NCBI RefSeq assembly: GCF_015355765.1
Contig: NZ_JACWNA010000005.1
Location: forward strand, 1-64,000
Direction: 5' to 3'
Source: Actinomyces haliotis
Lineage (GTDB): Bacteria > Actinomycetota > Actinomycetes > Actinomycetales > Actinomycetaceae
Length of the DNA: 64,000 nt
The notes beneath the pieces are model-generated. The model saw nothing but the letters and a program-made list of their open reading frames with translations, had not been told where the DNA came from and did not search any database. Positions 10,857 to 63,374 of the stretch are shown here, in pieces. Positions within the stretch are counted from its first letter, which is position 1; every line of letters starts with the position of its first letter. The position numbers and the translations under genes are program-made.

Positions 10857-10929
10857 GGGGCTATGGCGCAGTTGGTAGCGCGCTTCCATGGCATGGAAGA
10901 GGTCGGGGGTTCGAATCCCCCTAGCTCCA
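10857..10929 (+). tRNA. tRNA-Ala (anticodon GGC), first copy
   Basis: A 73-nt cloverleaf: acceptor GGGGCTA paired with TAGCTCC plus A73, anticodon stem CTTCC/GGAAG with loop ATGGCAT (anticodon GGC), and T arm GGGGG-TTCGAAT-CCCCC. The 3' CCA is not encoded. The second copy, 39 bp downstream, is identical in sequence, and both are preceded by the same CCCGTTACTC. Confidence 0.95.
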
Positions 10930-10968: not shown

Positions 10969-11041
10969 GGGGCTATGGCGCAGTTGGTAGCGCGCTTCCA
11001 TGGCATGGAAGAGGTCGGGGGTTCGAATCCCCCTAGCTCCA
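10969..11041 (+). tRNA. tRNA-Ala (anticodon GGC), second copy
   Basis: Identical to the first copy over all 73 nt and also shares ten bases of 5' flank (CCCGTTACTC), so the pair arose by a recent tandem duplication or gene conversion. It is followed at once by a terminator and then by a serine recombinase fragment, and it marks the left edge of the accessory region. Confidence 0.95.
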
Positions 11042-11064
11042 CGTAAGATGAGAAAATCGAAGCT

Positions 11065-11095
11065 TGCCCCGCCTGATGGCGGGGCAGTTTTGTTT
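11065..11095 (+). terminator. Terminator of the tRNA-Ala pair
   Basis: The hairpin TGCCCCGCC-TGAT-GGCGGGGCA (11065-11086) is followed by GTTTTGTTT, a classical factor-independent terminator for plus-strand transcription out of the two tRNA genes. Confidence 0.85.
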
Positions 11096-50955: not shown

Positions 50956-52029
50956 TCATCGTTGGGTGGTGGGCTGGTGGGGGAGAGTGGCCGTGACGCG
51001 CACCGTGAGCTCGGGGCCCTCCCCGAGGACCGCGACGGCGGCGTCGTGGAGCCGGAGGATGCTGTCGATGGAGCCGATGCCAAGGTCGCCGACCGCTCCC
51101 GGGCCGGTCCCGAGGAGCGCCGGCGCGATGTAGGCGACGACCTCGTCCACGAGCCCGGCGCGCAGCATCGAGGCGGCGAGCGTCGGCCCGCCCTCGAGGA
51201 GGACGTGCCGGATCCCGCGGTCGTGGAGCGAGGCGAGGCCGTCGATGAGGTCGCCGGTGACCTGGACGAGCTCGGCTCGGCCGTCGCGCAGATGGGCCCC
51301 CTGGGGCACTCCGCGCGAGCCGACGACCACGCGCAGCGGCTGGTGCTCGCGCGGGGCCGGGCGGTCCTCGGCGTCGCGGACGGTGAGCGAGGGGTCGTCC
51401 CTGAGGGCGGTGCCCGTGCCGACCATGACGGCGTCGCACTCGCGCCGCAGACGCTGCCCGTCCCGCCGCGCGACCGCGGAGGTGATCCACTGGCTCGAGC
51501 CGTCGCGCGCCGCGACACGTCCGTCGAGCGTCGTCGCGGTCTTCCACGTGACCAGCGGGCGGTCGTGGGTGAGACCGAAGAGCCAGCCCCGGTTCACGTC
51601 ACGGGCCTCGTCCTGGTGCGGGCCGGCGACGACGTCGACGCCGGCCTCGCGCAGCCTCCGGGCGCCCCCGGCGGCGACCGGGTTGGGATCGGGCAGGGCG
51701 TACACGACGCGGGCGACCCCCGCACGCAGGAGCGCCTCGGTGCACGGGCCCGTCCTGCCGGTGTGGTCGCAGGGCTCGAGCGTGACGACGGCGGTGGCGC
51801 CGTGGGCGGCGTCGCCGACCCGGTCGAGCGCGTCAACCTCGGCGTGGGGCGTTCCTGCCCCGCGGTGGTGGCCGACGGCGACCACCGTTCCGCCGGGGGA
51901 GAGGATGGTGCAGCCAACGCGCGGGTTGGGGCCCTGTGGGACGCCCGGTGCGCGTGCGGCCTCGAGCGCGAGGAGCATCGCCGCGGCCTCGGCCGCCGTG
52001 ACCGGCTCCGTCGTCGTCGTGGGTTCCAC
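50956..52029 (-). CDS. ribD: Bifunctional diaminohydroxyphosphoribosylaminopyrimidine deaminase / reductase
   Basis: A 357-residue RibD. The deaminase zinc motif HAEVDALDRVGDAAHGATAV and VTLEPCDHTGRTGPCTEALL is followed by the reductase domain, RPLVTWKTATTLDGRVAARD, WITSAVARRDGQRLR, GTGTALRDDPSLTVR and HVLLEGGPTLAASMLRAGLV. It performs two steps of riboflavin synthesis. It starts the operon, about 100 bp downstream of the FMN riboswitch. Confidence 0.95.
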   Translation of the reverse strand: MEPTTTTEPVTAAEAAAMLLALEAARAPGVPQGPNPRVGCTILSPGGTVVAVGHHRGAGTPHAEVDALDRVGDAAHGATAVVTLEPCDHTGRTGPCTEALLRAGVARVVYALPDPNPVAAGGARRLREAGVDVVAGPHQDEARDVNRGWLFGLTHDRPLVTWKTATTLDGRVAARDGSSQWITSAVARRDGQRLRRECDAVMVGTGTALRDDPSLTVRDAEDRPAPREHQPLRVVVGSRGVPQGAHLRDGRAELVQVTGDLIDGLASLHDRGIRHVLLEGGPTLAASMLRAGLVDEVVAYIAPALLGTGPGAVGDLGIGSIDSILRLHDAAVAVLGEGPELTVRVTATLPHQPTTQR

Positions 52030-52131
52030 GGTCCGTCCCGCCTCTCGTGCCGGTGCGGTTCCGGGGCGGAGAGGTCACGGGACGACGGCGCTCGCGCCGA
52101 CCCGTGGGCCGACGACGAACGCCGAGCTCCC

Positions 52132-52256
52132 GCGTGCGCTTCCCATCCGGACTTTGACCGTCGGTCCAGGAGTTCCACCTGGTCAACCGGCCACCGATGT
52201 GACCGGGTCGCGGACTTTCACCGCCGGTTCGGAGTTTCACCGACCCCAGAGCACGC
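52132..52256 (-). promoter_or_regulatory. FMN riboswitch (RFN element)
   Basis: On the minus strand the RNA reads GGGGTCGGTGAAACTCCGAA then CCGGCGGTGAAAGTCCGCGA, a middle stem with CTCCTGGACCGACGGTCAAA and the closing GTCCGGATGGGAAG. These are the invariant segments of the RFN element that binds FMN. It lies upstream of ribD, so FMN shuts off the operon, either by early termination or by hiding the ribosome site. Confidence 0.95.
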
Positions 52257-52360
52257 GAGCTCTTGCTTGCACGAGCACCGTACACCGACCGGCGTGCCGA
52301 TGTGGCCTCGACGGGCGTGCCGTGGACGGGCGCCCGGCGGACGCGGACGTGCAGACGCGG

Positions 52361-54658: not shown

Positions 54659-56998
54659 TCAGGCCTCCTTCTGGGCCAGGCCCAGGTACTCGGTGCGCTT
54701 GCCCATCTCCTCGACCATCCGGGCGGCGCGGGCCACGGCGCCGTCCTCGGAGAAGGAGCCGCCCAGGCGCATGCGGATCTGGTCGAGGTCCTTGTCGCCT
54801 CGGCCCGACAGGCACACGAGCAGGTGCGGGGTGGGGGCGTCGGCGGGGGTCTCGCGGGCGATCTTGAGCGCTTGCGCCAGGGCGTGCGAGGACTCGAGGG
54901 CCGGGATGATGCCCTCCCAGCGGGAGAGCTGGACGAAGGCGTCGACGGCCTCGTCGTCGGTGATGCCGACGTACTGGGCGCGCCCGGAGTCGGAGAGCCA
55001 CGCGTGCTCGGGTCCGACGCCCGGGTAGTCGAGGCCGGCGGACACGGAGAAGGACTCCTCGACCTGCCCCTCGTCGGTGCGCATGAGGTAGGAGCGGGCG
55101 CCGTGGAGGATGCCGACCTTGCCGGCGTTGATGGCGGCGCCGTGGTGCCGGGTGTCCAGGCCCTCGCCGGCGGGCTCGACGCCAACGAGCGCGACGTCCT
55201 CGTCGTCGACGAACTCGGAGAACATGCCGATGGCGTTGGAGCCGCCGCCCACGCACGCGAGGACCGTGTCGGGGAGGCGGCCGGTCATCTCGAGCATCTG
55301 GGCGCGGGCCTCGGTGGAGATGACGCGGTGGTACTCGTGGACGATCGTCGGGAAGGGGTGCGGTCCGGCGGCCGTCCCGAGGAGGTAGTGCGTCTCCTTG
55401 AAGGAGGCGGTCCAGTCGCGCAGTGCCTCGTTGACGGCGTCCTTGAGGGTGCCGGCGCCCGACGCCACGGGGACGACGTGCGCGCCCATGAGCTCCATGC
55501 GCTCGACGTTGGCGGCCTGCCGCACGACGTCGGTGGCGCCCATGTAGATCGTGCACTCCAGACCGAGCAGGGCGCAGACCATGGCGGTGGCGGTGCCGTG
55601 CTGGCCGGCGCCGGTCTCCGCGATGATGCGGTGCTTGCCCATGCGCTTGGCGAGCAGGGCCTGGCCGAGGACCTGGTTGCCCTTGTGGGCGCCCCCGTGG
55701 AGGAGGTCCTCGCGCTTGATGAAGATGCGGGCGTTGCCCTCGCGGGGCAGGTTGCGCAGCTCGGTGACCGGGGTGGGACGCCCGAGGTACCTCGTCATGA
55801 GCTCGTCGAGCTCGGTGTGGAAGCACGGGTCGTCCTGCGCCTCGATGAAGGCGTCCTCGAGCTGGTCGAGGGCGGGGACGAGGAGCTCAGGCACGTACTG
55901 GCCGCCGTAGGGGCCGAAGTACGCGGACAGGCGCGGGTGATGGTGGTCACCGTGCTCACGGCCCGCGGGCTGGGAGCCGGCGGACACGGGGGAGCCGTCG
56001 GTCTCGAGCCTCTCCTGCGCGGCCTCGTCTCCGCGGGCGACGGCGTGGGTCGGGTCCGGCGTCGTCGTCGCGAAGTCCGCGGCAGCGCCGGCGCCCGTGT
56101 CCTGGCCGCCCTCGAAGTAGGCGGAGGAGCCGGGCTGGCCGGCCCCGGAGTCCCCATCGGTGACGGCGGTCGCGAAGGATGCGGCGACGGCGCTCGGGTC
56201 CTCGCTCGCGGCCAGCGACGAGCCGATGAGGAGCGCGTCGACGAGGCCGGCCAGGCGCCGCACGTCGTCGGCGGACTGGACGCCGGACTCGCCCACGAGG
56301 ACGACGCCGGCGGGGGCGAGGGGCGCGTACTCCTCGGTGCGGGCGATGTCCGTGGCCAGCGTGCGCAGGTCGCGGTTGTTGATGCCGACGACCTCGGCAC
56401 CGAGGGCCTTGGCGCGCTCCATCTCCTCGTGGGTGGACACCTCGGTGAGGACCTCCATGCCCAGCGAGGCGGCCAGCTCGGCGAGCTCGCGGTAGACGTC
56501 GTCGGGGACGACGCTCAGCATGAGGAGGATGGCGTCGGCGCCGAGCGAGCGGGCGGCGAGCACCTGGACGGGGTCGACGATGAAGTCCTTGCACAGGACC
56601 GGCACGTCGACGACGGCGCGCACGGCCTCGAGGTCCTCGAAGGAGCCGTTGAAACGGTCCGGCTCGGTGAGCACGGAGACGGCGGCGGCGTGCGGCGCGT
56701 AGGTGGCGGCCAGCTCAGCGGGGTCGTACTGGCCGCGGATCGTCCCGAGCGAGGGCGACGCGGACTTGCACTCGAGAATGAGCGCCGGCTGCCGGCTCGC
56801 CCTCTCGCCGCTGCGGGTGCGCAGGGCAGCGGAGAAGGAGCGCTCGGAGCGCGGCAGGTCCTGCGGCCGCAGGCGCCCGAAGCGCTCGCGGAGCTCGGGG
56901 ATCCGCTTGCGGCGAGCCTCGACGATCGAGTCGAGCACCGTCCCGGAGACGATGAGCCGCTCCTCGACGGGCTTGAGGTCGGAGCTGCGGTGCGTCAT
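54659..56998 (-). CDS. Fused indole-3-glycerol-phosphate synthase / tryptophan synthase beta (TrpC-TrpB)
   Basis: A 779-residue fusion. Residues 1-278 are [24 protein letters not shown] (catalytic Lys78), [36 protein letters not shown] and [12 protein letters not shown], ending [10 protein letters not shown] and LIGSSLA. Residues 280-352 are a Gly/Ala/Thr/Asp linker. TrpB follows: [40 protein letters not shown] (PLP Lys439), [37 protein letters not shown] and [12 protein letters not shown]. The motif AHKGN differs from the more common AHKTN. No trpF is present; PriA elsewhere probably serves. The TrpB closely resembles the enterobacterial type by motif. Start and trpD stop overlap by one base (TGATG). 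Confidence 0.93.
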
Positions 56999-58860: not shown

Positions 58861-60648
58861 TCAGGCCTCCTTGCTCTCGGTGGTGGAGGCGACGGTGGGC
58901 GCGACGGGGGCCGTGGCCCCGTCGGCATCGGCGCCTGTGTCTGAGTCGATGACGAGGGTCGCGGCCTGGGCTGCGGCGACGGCGTGCAGGACGGCCGAGG
59001 CCTTGTGGACGGTCTCGGCGGCCTCGCGCTCGGGGACGGAGTCGGCGACGACGCCCGCTCCGGCCTGGACGAGGGCGGTGCCGTCCTTGACGAAGGCGGA
59101 GCGGATGACGATGCAGGTGTCGAGCTCGCCGTCACCGCGGAAGTAGCCGACGGAACCGCCGTAGGAGCCGCGGCGCACGCCCTCGGACTCGCGGATGAGC
59201 TCGGCGGCGCGGAGCTTGGGGGCGCCGGTGAGGGTGCCCATCGTCATCGAGGCGCGGAAGGCGTCCAGGGCGTCGAGATCGGGGGCGAGCGTGCCGGTCA
59301 CCTCGGAGACGAGGTGCATGACGCGGCTGTAGCGGTCCACGCGCAGCAGGTCGTCGACGTGCCGGGTGCCGGGAACGGAGACGCGGGCGATGTCGTTGCG
59401 GGCCAGGTCGACGAGCATGACGTGCTCGGCGACCTCCTTGGCGTCCGTGCGCAGCTCGAGCTCGAGGCGCGTGTCGCGCTCGTGGTCGACGGAGCCGTCC
59501 GGGTTGAGACCGCGAGGACGGGTGCCGGCGATGGGGCGGATGGCGACGTCGCCCGTCCTGGCGGAGTGCAGGAGGGCGGACTCGGGAGAGGCGCCGAGGA
59601 GCTCGAAGTCCGGGGCGCCCACGTAGAACATGTACGGGCTCGGGTTGGTCTCGCGCAGCTGGTGGTAGGCGGCCAGGGCGTCCGGGCAGGGCATCGTGAA
59701 GCCGCGCGAGGGGACCACCTGGTAGATGTCGCCCGCGGAGATGGACTCCTTGAGGCGCTCGACGGTGGCGGCGTAGTCGTCGTCGGACTGCGTCGGCACG
59801 GCGTGGATCACCGGGCGGGGGCTGCGTGTGTAGCCCGGCGCCGCCCCTGCGGACTGGGCGTCCTGCGCGGAGACGAGGCGGAGCTCGGCGTCGCGCACGA
59901 GGGCCTCGGCGTCGACGGCGTCGATCGCGGCGGCGAGCTCGTCCATGCGGGCGGTGAGCTGCTCAGCGTCGACGCTCGCGCCGACGAGGGTCGCGCACTG
60001 GGTGGGGTGGTCGATGACGAGGATGATCCGCGCGTCGTAGAAGAGGTAGTCGGGGCAGGTGTTGGCGCCCTGGGCGACCTCGGGGAGGGTCTCGATGGTG
60101 GCGAGGTAGTCGAAGGCGACGACGCCCGCCTCCAGCGGCAGGTGCTCGTGCCCGACCTCGGCGGCGGCGAGGACGCGCAGCGGCTCGATGGTCGACAGGG
60201 CGGTGAGGCGCTCGCGCTCCTCGAGGGCGCCGTCGTCGGGGGCCGGCGGGATGGTGAGAGTGAGCGTCCCGGGGGCGTCGGCGGTGACCTGCTCGGGCAG
60301 GGCGGCGCGCAGGCGTGCCAGGGCTGCCTCGCCGTCGGCGCTGGCCTGGGGGAGGGCCTCGACGGTGACGGTGTCACCCTCGCAGGTGAGGCGGGTGGAG
60401 GCCTCGAGGGCCGCGATCGTCGTGCGGGAGACCTTCGTGGCGATGTCGACGGACTCGAGGAGCACGGCGTCGAGGGGGCGCGCCTTGCCGGCGTGGTCGG
60501 TCGTGGTGGTGATGAGGCCGGCGGCGGCGAGGTGCTCGAGCAGGAGTCCGCCGTCGGACTGGTAGCGCACCTGGCGGGTCTCGACCGTGGGGGACTCGGC
60601 GCCGGCGAGGGGGGCCGTGACGCCCGGCGGGGTGGGAGGGAGTGACAT
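58861..60648 (-). CDS. trpE: Anthranilate synthase component I
   Basis: A 595-residue chorismate-utilising enzyme, making anthranilate. The tryptophan-inhibition motif LLES is at residues 63-66 (AVLLESVDIATKVSRTTIAA), so feedback control is likely. Catalytic blocks include SAGDIYQVVPSRGFTMPCPD, FELLGASPESALLHSARTGD, RPIAGTRPRG, LMLVDLARNDIARVSVPGTR and RASMTMGTLTGAPKLRAAEL. The C-terminal 50 residues are a low-complexity tail not seen in most TrpE. First structural gene behind the trpL attenuator; AGGAAGGC precedes the ATG at 60648. Confidence 0.95.
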   Translation of the reverse strand: MSLPPTPPGVTAPLAGAESPTVETRQVRYQSDGGLLLEHLAAAGLITTTTDHAGKARPLDAVLLESVDIATKVSRTTIAALEASTRLTCEGDTVTVEALPQASADGEAALARLRAALPEQVTADAPGTLTLTIPPAPDDGALEERERLTALSTIEPLRVLAAAEVGHEHLPLEAGVVAFDYLATIETLPEVAQGANTCPDYLFYDARIILVIDHPTQCATLVGASVDAEQLTARMDELAAAIDAVDAEALVRDAELRLVSAQDAQSAGAAPGYTRSPRPVIHAVPTQSDDDYAATVERLKESISAGDIYQVVPSRGFTMPCPDALAAYHQLRETNPSPYMFYVGAPDFELLGASPESALLHSARTGDVAIRPIAGTRPRGLNPDGSVDHERDTRLELELRTDAKEVAEHVMLVDLARNDIARVSVPGTRHVDDLLRVDRYSRVMHLVSEVTGTLAPDLDALDAFRASMTMGTLTGAPKLRAAELIRESEGVRRGSYGGSVGYFRGDGELDTCIVIRSAFVKDGTALVQAGAGVVADSVPEREAAETVHKASAVLHAVAAAQAATLVIDSDTGADADGATAPVAPTVASTTESKEA

Positions 60649-60667
60649 CCTGTGCCTTCCTGTTCGT

Positions 60668-60721
60668 GCCACCAGGACCCGCCTCCGAGAACGCGAAGAG
60701 CCCGCCTGGTGGCGAGCTCTT
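60668..60721 (-). promoter_or_regulatory. trp attenuator hairpins
   Basis: In minus-strand RNA, AAGAGCTCGCC (60721-60711) pairs with GGCGGGCTCTT (60706-60696) to form one hairpin with an ACCA loop. Its inner arm and loop also contain GCCACCAGG (60713-60705), which pairs perfectly with CCTGGTGGC (60676-60668), immediately before the trpE ribosome site; GCCACCA can also pair with TGGTGGC in the Trp codons of trpL. This is the alternating 1:2, 2:3, 3:4 design of a classical trp attenuator. Which stem is the stop signal is inferred. Confidence 0.75.
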
Positions 60722-60734
60722 GCGTGGGTTCCGC

Positions 60735-60800
60735 TTACGCGGCGTGAGTGGCTCGCCCCTGGGGGAGCCACCACCACTGTCGGGTGCGGAACGCGATCAT
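60735..60800 (-). CDS. trpL: trp operon leader peptide
   Basis: A 21-codon frame, [20 protein letters not shown] ending A then TAA, with three consecutive Trp codons (UGG UGG UGG). It lies about 90 bp upstream of trpE and just before the alternating hairpins. Stalling at the Trp codons when tryptophan is scarce would let the antiterminator form. The ATG overlaps the TGA of the upstream membrane gene by ATGA (60797-60800), so translation of the leader can be coupled to that gene. No separate ribosome site is clear. Confidence 0.85.
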   Translation of the reverse strand: MIAFRTRQWWWLPQGRATHAA

Positions 60801-61303
60801 GGCGCGAGAGTAGGGCGACGGCGCTCGGAGGGACAAGTCGGGGCCGCGGCCGCGCGCATGGTGAGACGACGACGCACGAGGGCCACCGTCGCGACGAGGA
60901 CGGCGATGCCCGCGAGCGCCCAGCCCCCGCCCGCAGAGATCCAGGCGGCGACGACGGCGAGCCCGACGGTCGCGTAGATGACGGCCCACAGCAGGCACCT
61001 GACGCACACCGCCGGCAGGTAGAGGCGCAGCGGCATCCGGCTGACGCCCGCCCACAGCTGGACGCAGGTCTGCAAGCCGACGGTCGCGAAGGACAGGGGC
61101 ACGGCGAGGACGCCCCAGCGCTCGGCCATGGTGCGGGCGCGCTCGTAGGCGGCGGTCTGAAGGACCGGCGCCCAGCGGGTGCGGCCGGTGCCGGCGGCGA
61201 GGCCGCGGCCGATCCAGTAGGTGGCGTTGGCGCGGCACATGACGATGACCCACAGGGCGGCGACGGCCCAGCCCAGGGGCAGCTCGAGGATGCGGTCAAC
61301 CAC
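60797..61303 (-). CDS. DedA-like small membrane protein
   Basis: A 168-residue polytopic protein with about four membrane segments ([80 protein letters not shown]). [22 protein letters not shown], and the [10 protein letters not shown] end recall DedA/VTT proteins of actinobacteria, but it is shorter than usual, so the assignment is loose. Its stop overlaps the trpL start, so it is the first gene of the trp transcription unit, or a promoter for trp lies inside it. Confidence 0.6.
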
Positions 61304-61496
61304 GGGGCGACCCTACGGCAGCCGCACGTGCCGCGGCGCGAGGGCGCGTCGCCGGGCCGTGGGGACGGACGCCGTCGGGCACGGCTCACACCGCCTGGAC
61401 CTCGGCCGGCCACCGCCGCCGTGGGACACTGCCCCCAGAGACCGAGTTGGCCGCCCGCGGCCGACCCAGCACGAGACTGACCTCCGGAAGGACGAC

Positions 61497-63374
<1,878 letters not shown>

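Follow-up and report, generated by a model that had tools for sequence, protein, structure and literature searches.

The leader trpL1 that precedes trpE in Streptomyces lividans (MFAHSTRNWWWTAHPAAH) is transcribed leaderless, and a −10 element of the type TAnnnT has been reported in that organism, as described in the accessible part of the report (PMC8079986). Like trpL1, the element described here is an actinobacterial trpE leader with three consecutive Trp codons, hairpins ahead of trpE and a TAnnnT −10 hexamer, its leaderless start being a prediction; trpL1 differs in having a uridine-rich stretch and a monocistronic trpE, whereas in the window (the whole 64,000-nucleotide stretch of DNA that was analysed) a U-run is absent and the leader precedes a trp operon (PMC8079986, accessible part). 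The second S. lividans leader, trpL2, located before trpS, resembles the window element in being a leaderless Trp leader with hairpins and, in the same portion of the report, no uridine-rich sequence, the start in the window again being predicted; unlike the window leader, it has one Trp codon and controls a tRNA ligase gene (PMC8079986). A Trp leader RNA beginning at the ATG, as predicted for the window, is also found in Sinorhizobium meliloti, where the 5′ end of trpL/rnTrpL coincides with the trpL ATG; this organism, however, is an alphaproteobacterium, and its leader RNA and peptide act in trans, according to the available portion of the source (PMC7298713). Since leaderless trp attenuators have been reported in S. 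lividans and S. meliloti, the Actinomyces element would belong to a known kind. Leaderless short ORFs also serve in amino-acid attenuation elsewhere in the actinobacteria, the mycobacterial polycysteine ORFs, reportedly presented as attenuators by Canestrari et al. in 2020, sharing this design but sensing cysteine instead of tryptophan. The attenuators of C. glutamicum are said to have been treated by Neshat et al. in 2014 and S. venezuelae by Lin et al. in 1998. Control of cysteine genes has been termed translation attenuation in the accessible text of another report (PMC13236596).

In the available text of the survey of Seliverstov et al. (2005; PMC1262725), the classical trp attenuators of Corynebacterium and Streptomyces combine tandem Trp codons, an antiterminator and a GC-rich terminator hairpin, features which the window element shares; all of the trp terminators in that text carry poly-U, whereas the window hairpin does not. 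A. naeslundii was among the genomes surveyed, and in the same text Corynebacterium and Streptomyces are the only genera for which trp attenuators are named (PMC1262725). Our guess is that Actinomyces was passed over owing to the missing U-run. A trp leader of C. diphtheriae, MTNMNAHNWWWRA, has been reported, the accessible part of the source giving no mapped start for it (PMC5784534). A full-text literature search, with coverage of mostly non-subscription papers, returned no report of leaderless trp attenuation in Actinomyces. In our judgement, a leaderless, ribosome-mediated trp attenuator is very probably the best explanation of the locus described below, and would place leaderless trp attenuation across the genus.

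The trp leader and its distribution

The leader ORF (trpL) comprises 21 codons and lies on the minus strand at 60735..60800, with its ATG at 60800 and its TAA ending at 60735, as seen in the list of ORFs and in the sequence. Three consecutive codons, TGGTGGTGG at 60768-60776 (minus), specify tryptophan and are invariant in alignment A1; both the length of the leader and its three Trp codons agree with the original prediction. The first gene of the controlled operon, trpE (58861..60648, minus; Pfam Chorismate_bind and Anth_synt_I_N), begins with an ATG at 60648, 152 nt past the leader start, and is preceded by the Shine-Dalgarno-like AGGAAGG at 60655..60661 (minus). The Pfam assignments downstream of the leader (trpE, GATase as trpG, trpD, fused IGPS-PALP and trpA) give the order trpE-trpG-trpD-trpC/B-trpA, and the window locus accordingly presents a short ORF with tandem Trp codons ahead of trp genes. 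The trpC-trpB fusion is a single ORF of 779 aa at 54659-56998 (minus) containing indole-3-glycerol phosphate synthase and PALP domains.

Comparison of the leader across relatives, which had been proposed together with the original prediction, was carried out on the upstream regions of 44 Actinomyces trpE genes, the window being one of them. A leader with three consecutive Trp codons (WWW) precedes trpE in 40 of these, which indicates that the window leader is not a chance occurrence. The four remaining loci (L028, L029, L031 and L124) have no leader ORF and were excluded from the leader statistics, for which n = 40; in these, trpE lies close behind another coding sequence, which on visual inspection resembles the end of a gene like trpB. 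The trpE query matched only weakly in two further genomes of the genus (G013 and G034), which stood outside the sample. Other genera of the family were represented by 11 of the 12 loci matching the window trpE at E < 1e-100 (G105 was left out), ten of which carry a candidate WWW leader, the other one (L132) having WW. A set of 80 loci served solely for naming one locus (L037) and for viewing leaders of Corynebacterium. Alignment A1 omits L117, whose leader is identical to that of L036, and alignment A2 omits L035. The covariance models of Rfam 15, applied to the whole window, gave no match to the leader at the gathering score, and on 60600-60900, with E values up to 10, they returned just four unrelated matches, far below their cut-offs.

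Switch segments and modelled folding

All four segments that make up a ribosome-mediated attenuator are present in the leader RNA, on the minus strand. Segment 1 (GTGGCTC, 60765..60771; sequence and folding) pairs with 60748-60754, within segment 2 (GGCGAGCCAC, 60748..60757; alignment, pairing and folding). Segment 3 (AAGAGCTCGCC, 60711..60721; alignment and folding) can pair through its GCTCGCC with segment 2, and as a whole with segment 4 (GGCGGGCTCTT, 60696..60706; folding and T-run count), which is followed by TTCGCG-type sequence without a U-run. The switch pairing proper, of GGCGAGC (60757-60751) with GCTCGCC (60717-60711), was absent from the original prediction, in which the alternative pairings of GCCACCAGG had been put forward. 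These were confirmed: GCCACCAGG (60713-60705) is a perfect complement of CCTGGTGGC (60676-60668), its GCCACCA is able to pair with the run of Trp codons, and its first and last bases are held by the 11-bp hairpin AAGAGCTCGCC/GGCGGGCTCTT (60721-60696). RNA folding, also suggested at the outset, gave a z of −3.23 for the whole leader, with 0/200 shuffles as stable, and −25.4 kcal/mol for the hairpin region (z −6.24, none of 200 shuffles being equally stable).

With a ribosome modelled on the Trp codons, a footprint of 16 nt being counted from the P-site codon's first base, and the RNA ending at segment 3, the probability of the 2:3 pairing is at least 0.99 in all 40 leaders, falling to a stall value of 0.16 in the control with the downstream part shuffled; with no ribosome, the model forms 1:2 instead of 2:3 in 36 of the 40, the exceptions, with no clear preference for 1:2, being L008, L034, L122 and L125. 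The exclusive pairings 1:2, 2:3 and 3:4 are thus chosen by the position of the ribosome in the model. The leaders fall into class A, with GAGCUCG in segment 3 (21 of 40, the window among them), and class B, with GGCUCGC followed by GGCCCGCCUGA (18 of the remaining 19), L035 having a hairpin with a U-run. When the full-length RNA is folded to equilibrium, the class A segment 3 takes a downstream partner in all states, the stalled ones included (0.71-1.00), and because this downstream pairing wins at equilibrium the switch must act during transcription, as it does in known attenuators. Across 20 rows of class A, the share of paired cells is 100% for 2:3 and 94.1% for 3:4, and in the 18 class B rows it is 100% for 3:4; there is almost no covariation in the segments because there is almost no variation, the segments being nearly invariant. 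The existence of a trp attenuator, as originally claimed, is supported by the WWW leader before trpE in 40 of 44 loci, the four segments and the modelled switch.

In the mechanism that we propose, scarcity of charged tRNA-Trp would cause the ribosome to stall on the three Trp codons, covering segment 1, and GGCGAGC of segment 2 would then pair with the emerging GCUCGCC of segment 3, blocking hairpin 3:4 and allowing trpE to trpA to be transcribed. When tryptophan is plentiful, a ribosome reaching the leader stop would cover segment 2, hairpin 3:4 would form and transcription would be stopped or cut back, and in the absence of a ribosome 1:2 would form, with 3:4 next.

The missing U-run and the end of transcription

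In the 14 nt past the hairpin, counted in class B from beyond the UGA next to the stem, the longest T-run measures 1 or 2 in 39 of the 40 Actinomyces leaders (2 in the window) and 5 in L035. At the loci of other genera the T-run is at least 4 in ten of 11 (the exception being L135), and the parts are found in matching order with a U-run terminator in ten of 11. The window has the GC-rich hairpin of a classical intrinsic terminator and lacks the U-run, and for this reason its attenuator is not filed under that type. The U-tract need of the mycobacterial polymerase is reportedly the subject of Czyz et al. in 2014. The apparent loss of the U-run inside one genus offers a natural comparison for attenuator termination in high-GC bacteria. 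A scan of 1-60000 for U-rich terminators found 9 versus 4.9 in shuffles, 5 versus 3.9 and 2 versus 2.0, and being only slightly above the shuffles it allows no strong statement on the use of such terminators in this genome. Two tRNA genes with identical sequence and score follow one another at 10857-10929 and 10969-11041 (plus), and after them lies a hairpin with a U-rich tail at 11064-11087.

A fifth element, segment 5 (CCTGGTGGC, 60668..60676, minus), was delineated from conservation, pair counts and folding; it is complementary to GCCACCAGG at 60705-60713, its GGTGGC to the GCCACC of segment 3. The mean majority fraction of GGTGGCAC is 0.95 in 12 thinned class A rows, compared with 0.67-0.73 in the adjoining stretches and 0.79 at the Shine-Dalgarno site, and GGTGGC just upstream of trpE is exact in 18 of 20 aligned class A rows, the exceptions being L008 and L019. 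The 3:5 pairing is present in 87.7% of cells; 18/500 shuffles reach the observed pairing and 21/500 the observed covariation, and the only 3:5 pair with a double change, found in L008, is equalled in 259/500 shuffles. As a competing fold 3:5 was rejected, 3:4 being favoured by 1.4 to 20.1 kcal/mol in all 19 species in which both could be enforced, a comparison made without L008 and with L019 probably mis-registered through an insertion. Enforcing 3:5 in the model leaves access to the trpE start unchanged or raises it in each of the 19 species. In class B, a possible crossing helix, CGCTCAC/GTGAGAG versus GCGGGCC/GGCCCGC, is paired in 81.7% of cells, with no double changes. Just before trpE, class B loci (L020, for example) carry CAGGAAAGAGGCCCCATG, nearly invariant in 18 loci, the GGCCC of which could form pairs with a GGGCC in the upstream hairpin and touch the trpE start. 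Neither of two further TGGTGGTGGCTC sites in the genome shows the attenuator pattern by eye.

Tentatively, and with more doubt than confidence, we consider that most Actinomyces may have kept the sensor and the switch and lost the U-run, transcription being stopped in a U-independent manner, by the hairpin acting by itself or together with Rho or some other factor, and that in the class of the window the conserved GGUGGCAC ahead of trpE, which complements the hairpin on its loop side, may be a fifth segment of the switch. It is unlikely that the leader fold controls Rho-dependent instead of intrinsic termination: the lack of a U-run after segment 4, whereas a U-rich terminator-like site (11064-11087) follows the tRNA genes of the window, would be compatible with such control, but the class A hairpin 3:4 shows strong conservation (majority fraction 0.95, 12 thinned rows) that would be superfluous for a Rho site on its own.

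Less probable still is translational attenuation, whereby the alternative folds would hide or free the ribosome-binding site of trpE and no transcript would be ended. Here too the missing U-run after segment 4 would fit, as would the conserved GGUGGCAC element upstream of the trpE Shine-Dalgarno sequence and the higher modelled access to the trpE start in the stalled state in L005 (0.54 versus 0.29), L034 (0.64 versus 0.36) and L125 (0.66 versus 0.39). Over the 40 species, however, mean access to the Shine-Dalgarno sequence and start is 0.50 and 0.49 in the stalled states versus 0.45 with the ribosome at the stop, the values in the window being 0.49 and 0.50, respectively; on average, modelled accessibility thus gives no support to translational control of trpE, and the loci of other genera carry U-run terminators at the corresponding place.

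Predicted leaderless start and the upstream membrane gene

The leaderless, ribosome-mediated attenuator preferred here implies a promoter at the leader, and the window displays the layout TTGTCC-N18-TACTCT-6 nt-ATG on the minus strand, with the −35-like TTGTCC at 60831..60836, inside the end of the upstream ORF, and the −10-like TACTCT at 60807..60812, 6 nt ahead of the leader ATG. This layout would place the transcript start at the leader ATG itself, 60800. A TANNNT hexamer is found 6-8 nt ahead of the leader start (beginning at −12, −13 or −14) in 39 of 40 Actinomyces species, L019 being the exception, against 1.05 on average and never more than 5 in 1000 shuffles of the 60 upstream bases, the leader starts having been hand-picked among candidates, more than one of which is offered by several loci, and the upstream bases having been visible during the choice for part of the loci. 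The hexamer is kept in 24 of 25 species after thinning to under 80% identity, TTG occupies the −35 place with a spacer of 17-19 nt in 34 of 40, and a hexamer is present at the corresponding place in seven of the 11 leaders from other genera. A general sigma-70 scan of 60500-61700, which asks for TTGACA/TATAAT-like hexamers, found no promoter.

The leaders are devoid of a Shine-Dalgarno sequence, no match to AAGGAGGTG exceeding 4 nt in the 40 species (longest match 0 in 16, 3 nt in 23 and 4 nt in one). The trpE genes have one of at least 4 nt in 39/39 counted (L119, with a misassigned trpE start, excluded), but because a purine filter was used in choosing the trpE starts, the contrast between leader and trpE is partly built in. 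We infer that the polymerase would start on the A of the leader ATG, or at most one or two bases away, from a promoter located in the last codons of the membrane gene, and that the ribosome would load on the 5′-terminal AUG without a Shine-Dalgarno site. Most likely, the trp leader senses tryptophan in the ordinary way and is transcribed from a promoter of its own.

The membrane gene is a VTT/DedA-like ORF at 60797..61303 (minus) which Pfam VTT matches at 26.4 bits, with a cut-off of 33.9; despite this weak match it is probably a real gene, since 18 of 40 species have homologues ahead of the leader, and we judge it to be outside the mechanism. Its TGA overlaps the leader ATG as ATGA, as had been noticed originally. 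The stop of the homologue overlaps the leader in only three of 40 species (the window, L003 and L017), falls 10-11 nt short of it in L014, L015, L020 and L021 and lies 54 to 795 nt upstream in 11 others, and in 22 of the 40 leader-bearing species the upstream sequence retrieved yielded no homologue. The first bases of the leader are ATGA in 34 and GTGA in six, with or without a DedA gene upstream. The overlap arises because the first codons of the leader itself give ATGA or GTGA in 40/40; judged from the sequence, it is most plausibly a by-product of the second codon of the leader and looks accidental. An ATGA overlap therefore need not signal coupling.

Pfam named seven upstream ORFs across the compared species. 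Upstream ORFs on the same strand ending 59-122 nt before the leader belong to subtilase (L018 and L026) and PALP (L019 and L036), and the nearest recognised genes on the opposite strand are an oxidoreductase (L034), a lactate/malate dehydrogenase (L035) and a pirin (L030), divergence being called on the nearest recognised gene where shorter same-strand ORFs exist, such as one of 109 codons in L034. In L019 (upstream of 1416) and L036 (upstream of 1401), the PALP gene, trpB-like by reading, shares the strand of leader and trpE and lies just ahead of them.

It is very improbable that ribosomes finishing the membrane gene restart at the overlapping ATG and so feed the load on that gene into trp control, a coupling with which the overlap in three species, the stops 10-11 nt off in four and the lack of a leader Shine-Dalgarno sequence would agree, but against which stand the 22 species with no homologue found upstream and the 11 with a stop at least 54 nt away, the divergent neighbours in the three loci checked (L030, L034 and L035), the −10 hexamer that accompanies the leader in all but one of the 40 species and an overlap that follows from the leader. 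Coupling was rejected as a general mechanism, and translation of the leader by ribosomes from the upstream gene, as first proposed, is not supported; the original prediction had itself named a promoter at the leader as evidence against it, and sequence evidence for one is provided by the hexamers described above. In the species of the window alone, extra read-through from the membrane gene may occur.

Elsewhere in the window, an FMN riboswitch (98.4 bits) is located at 52130-52258 (minus), and the ORF behind it, at 50956-52029, reads like a riboflavin deaminase/reductase.
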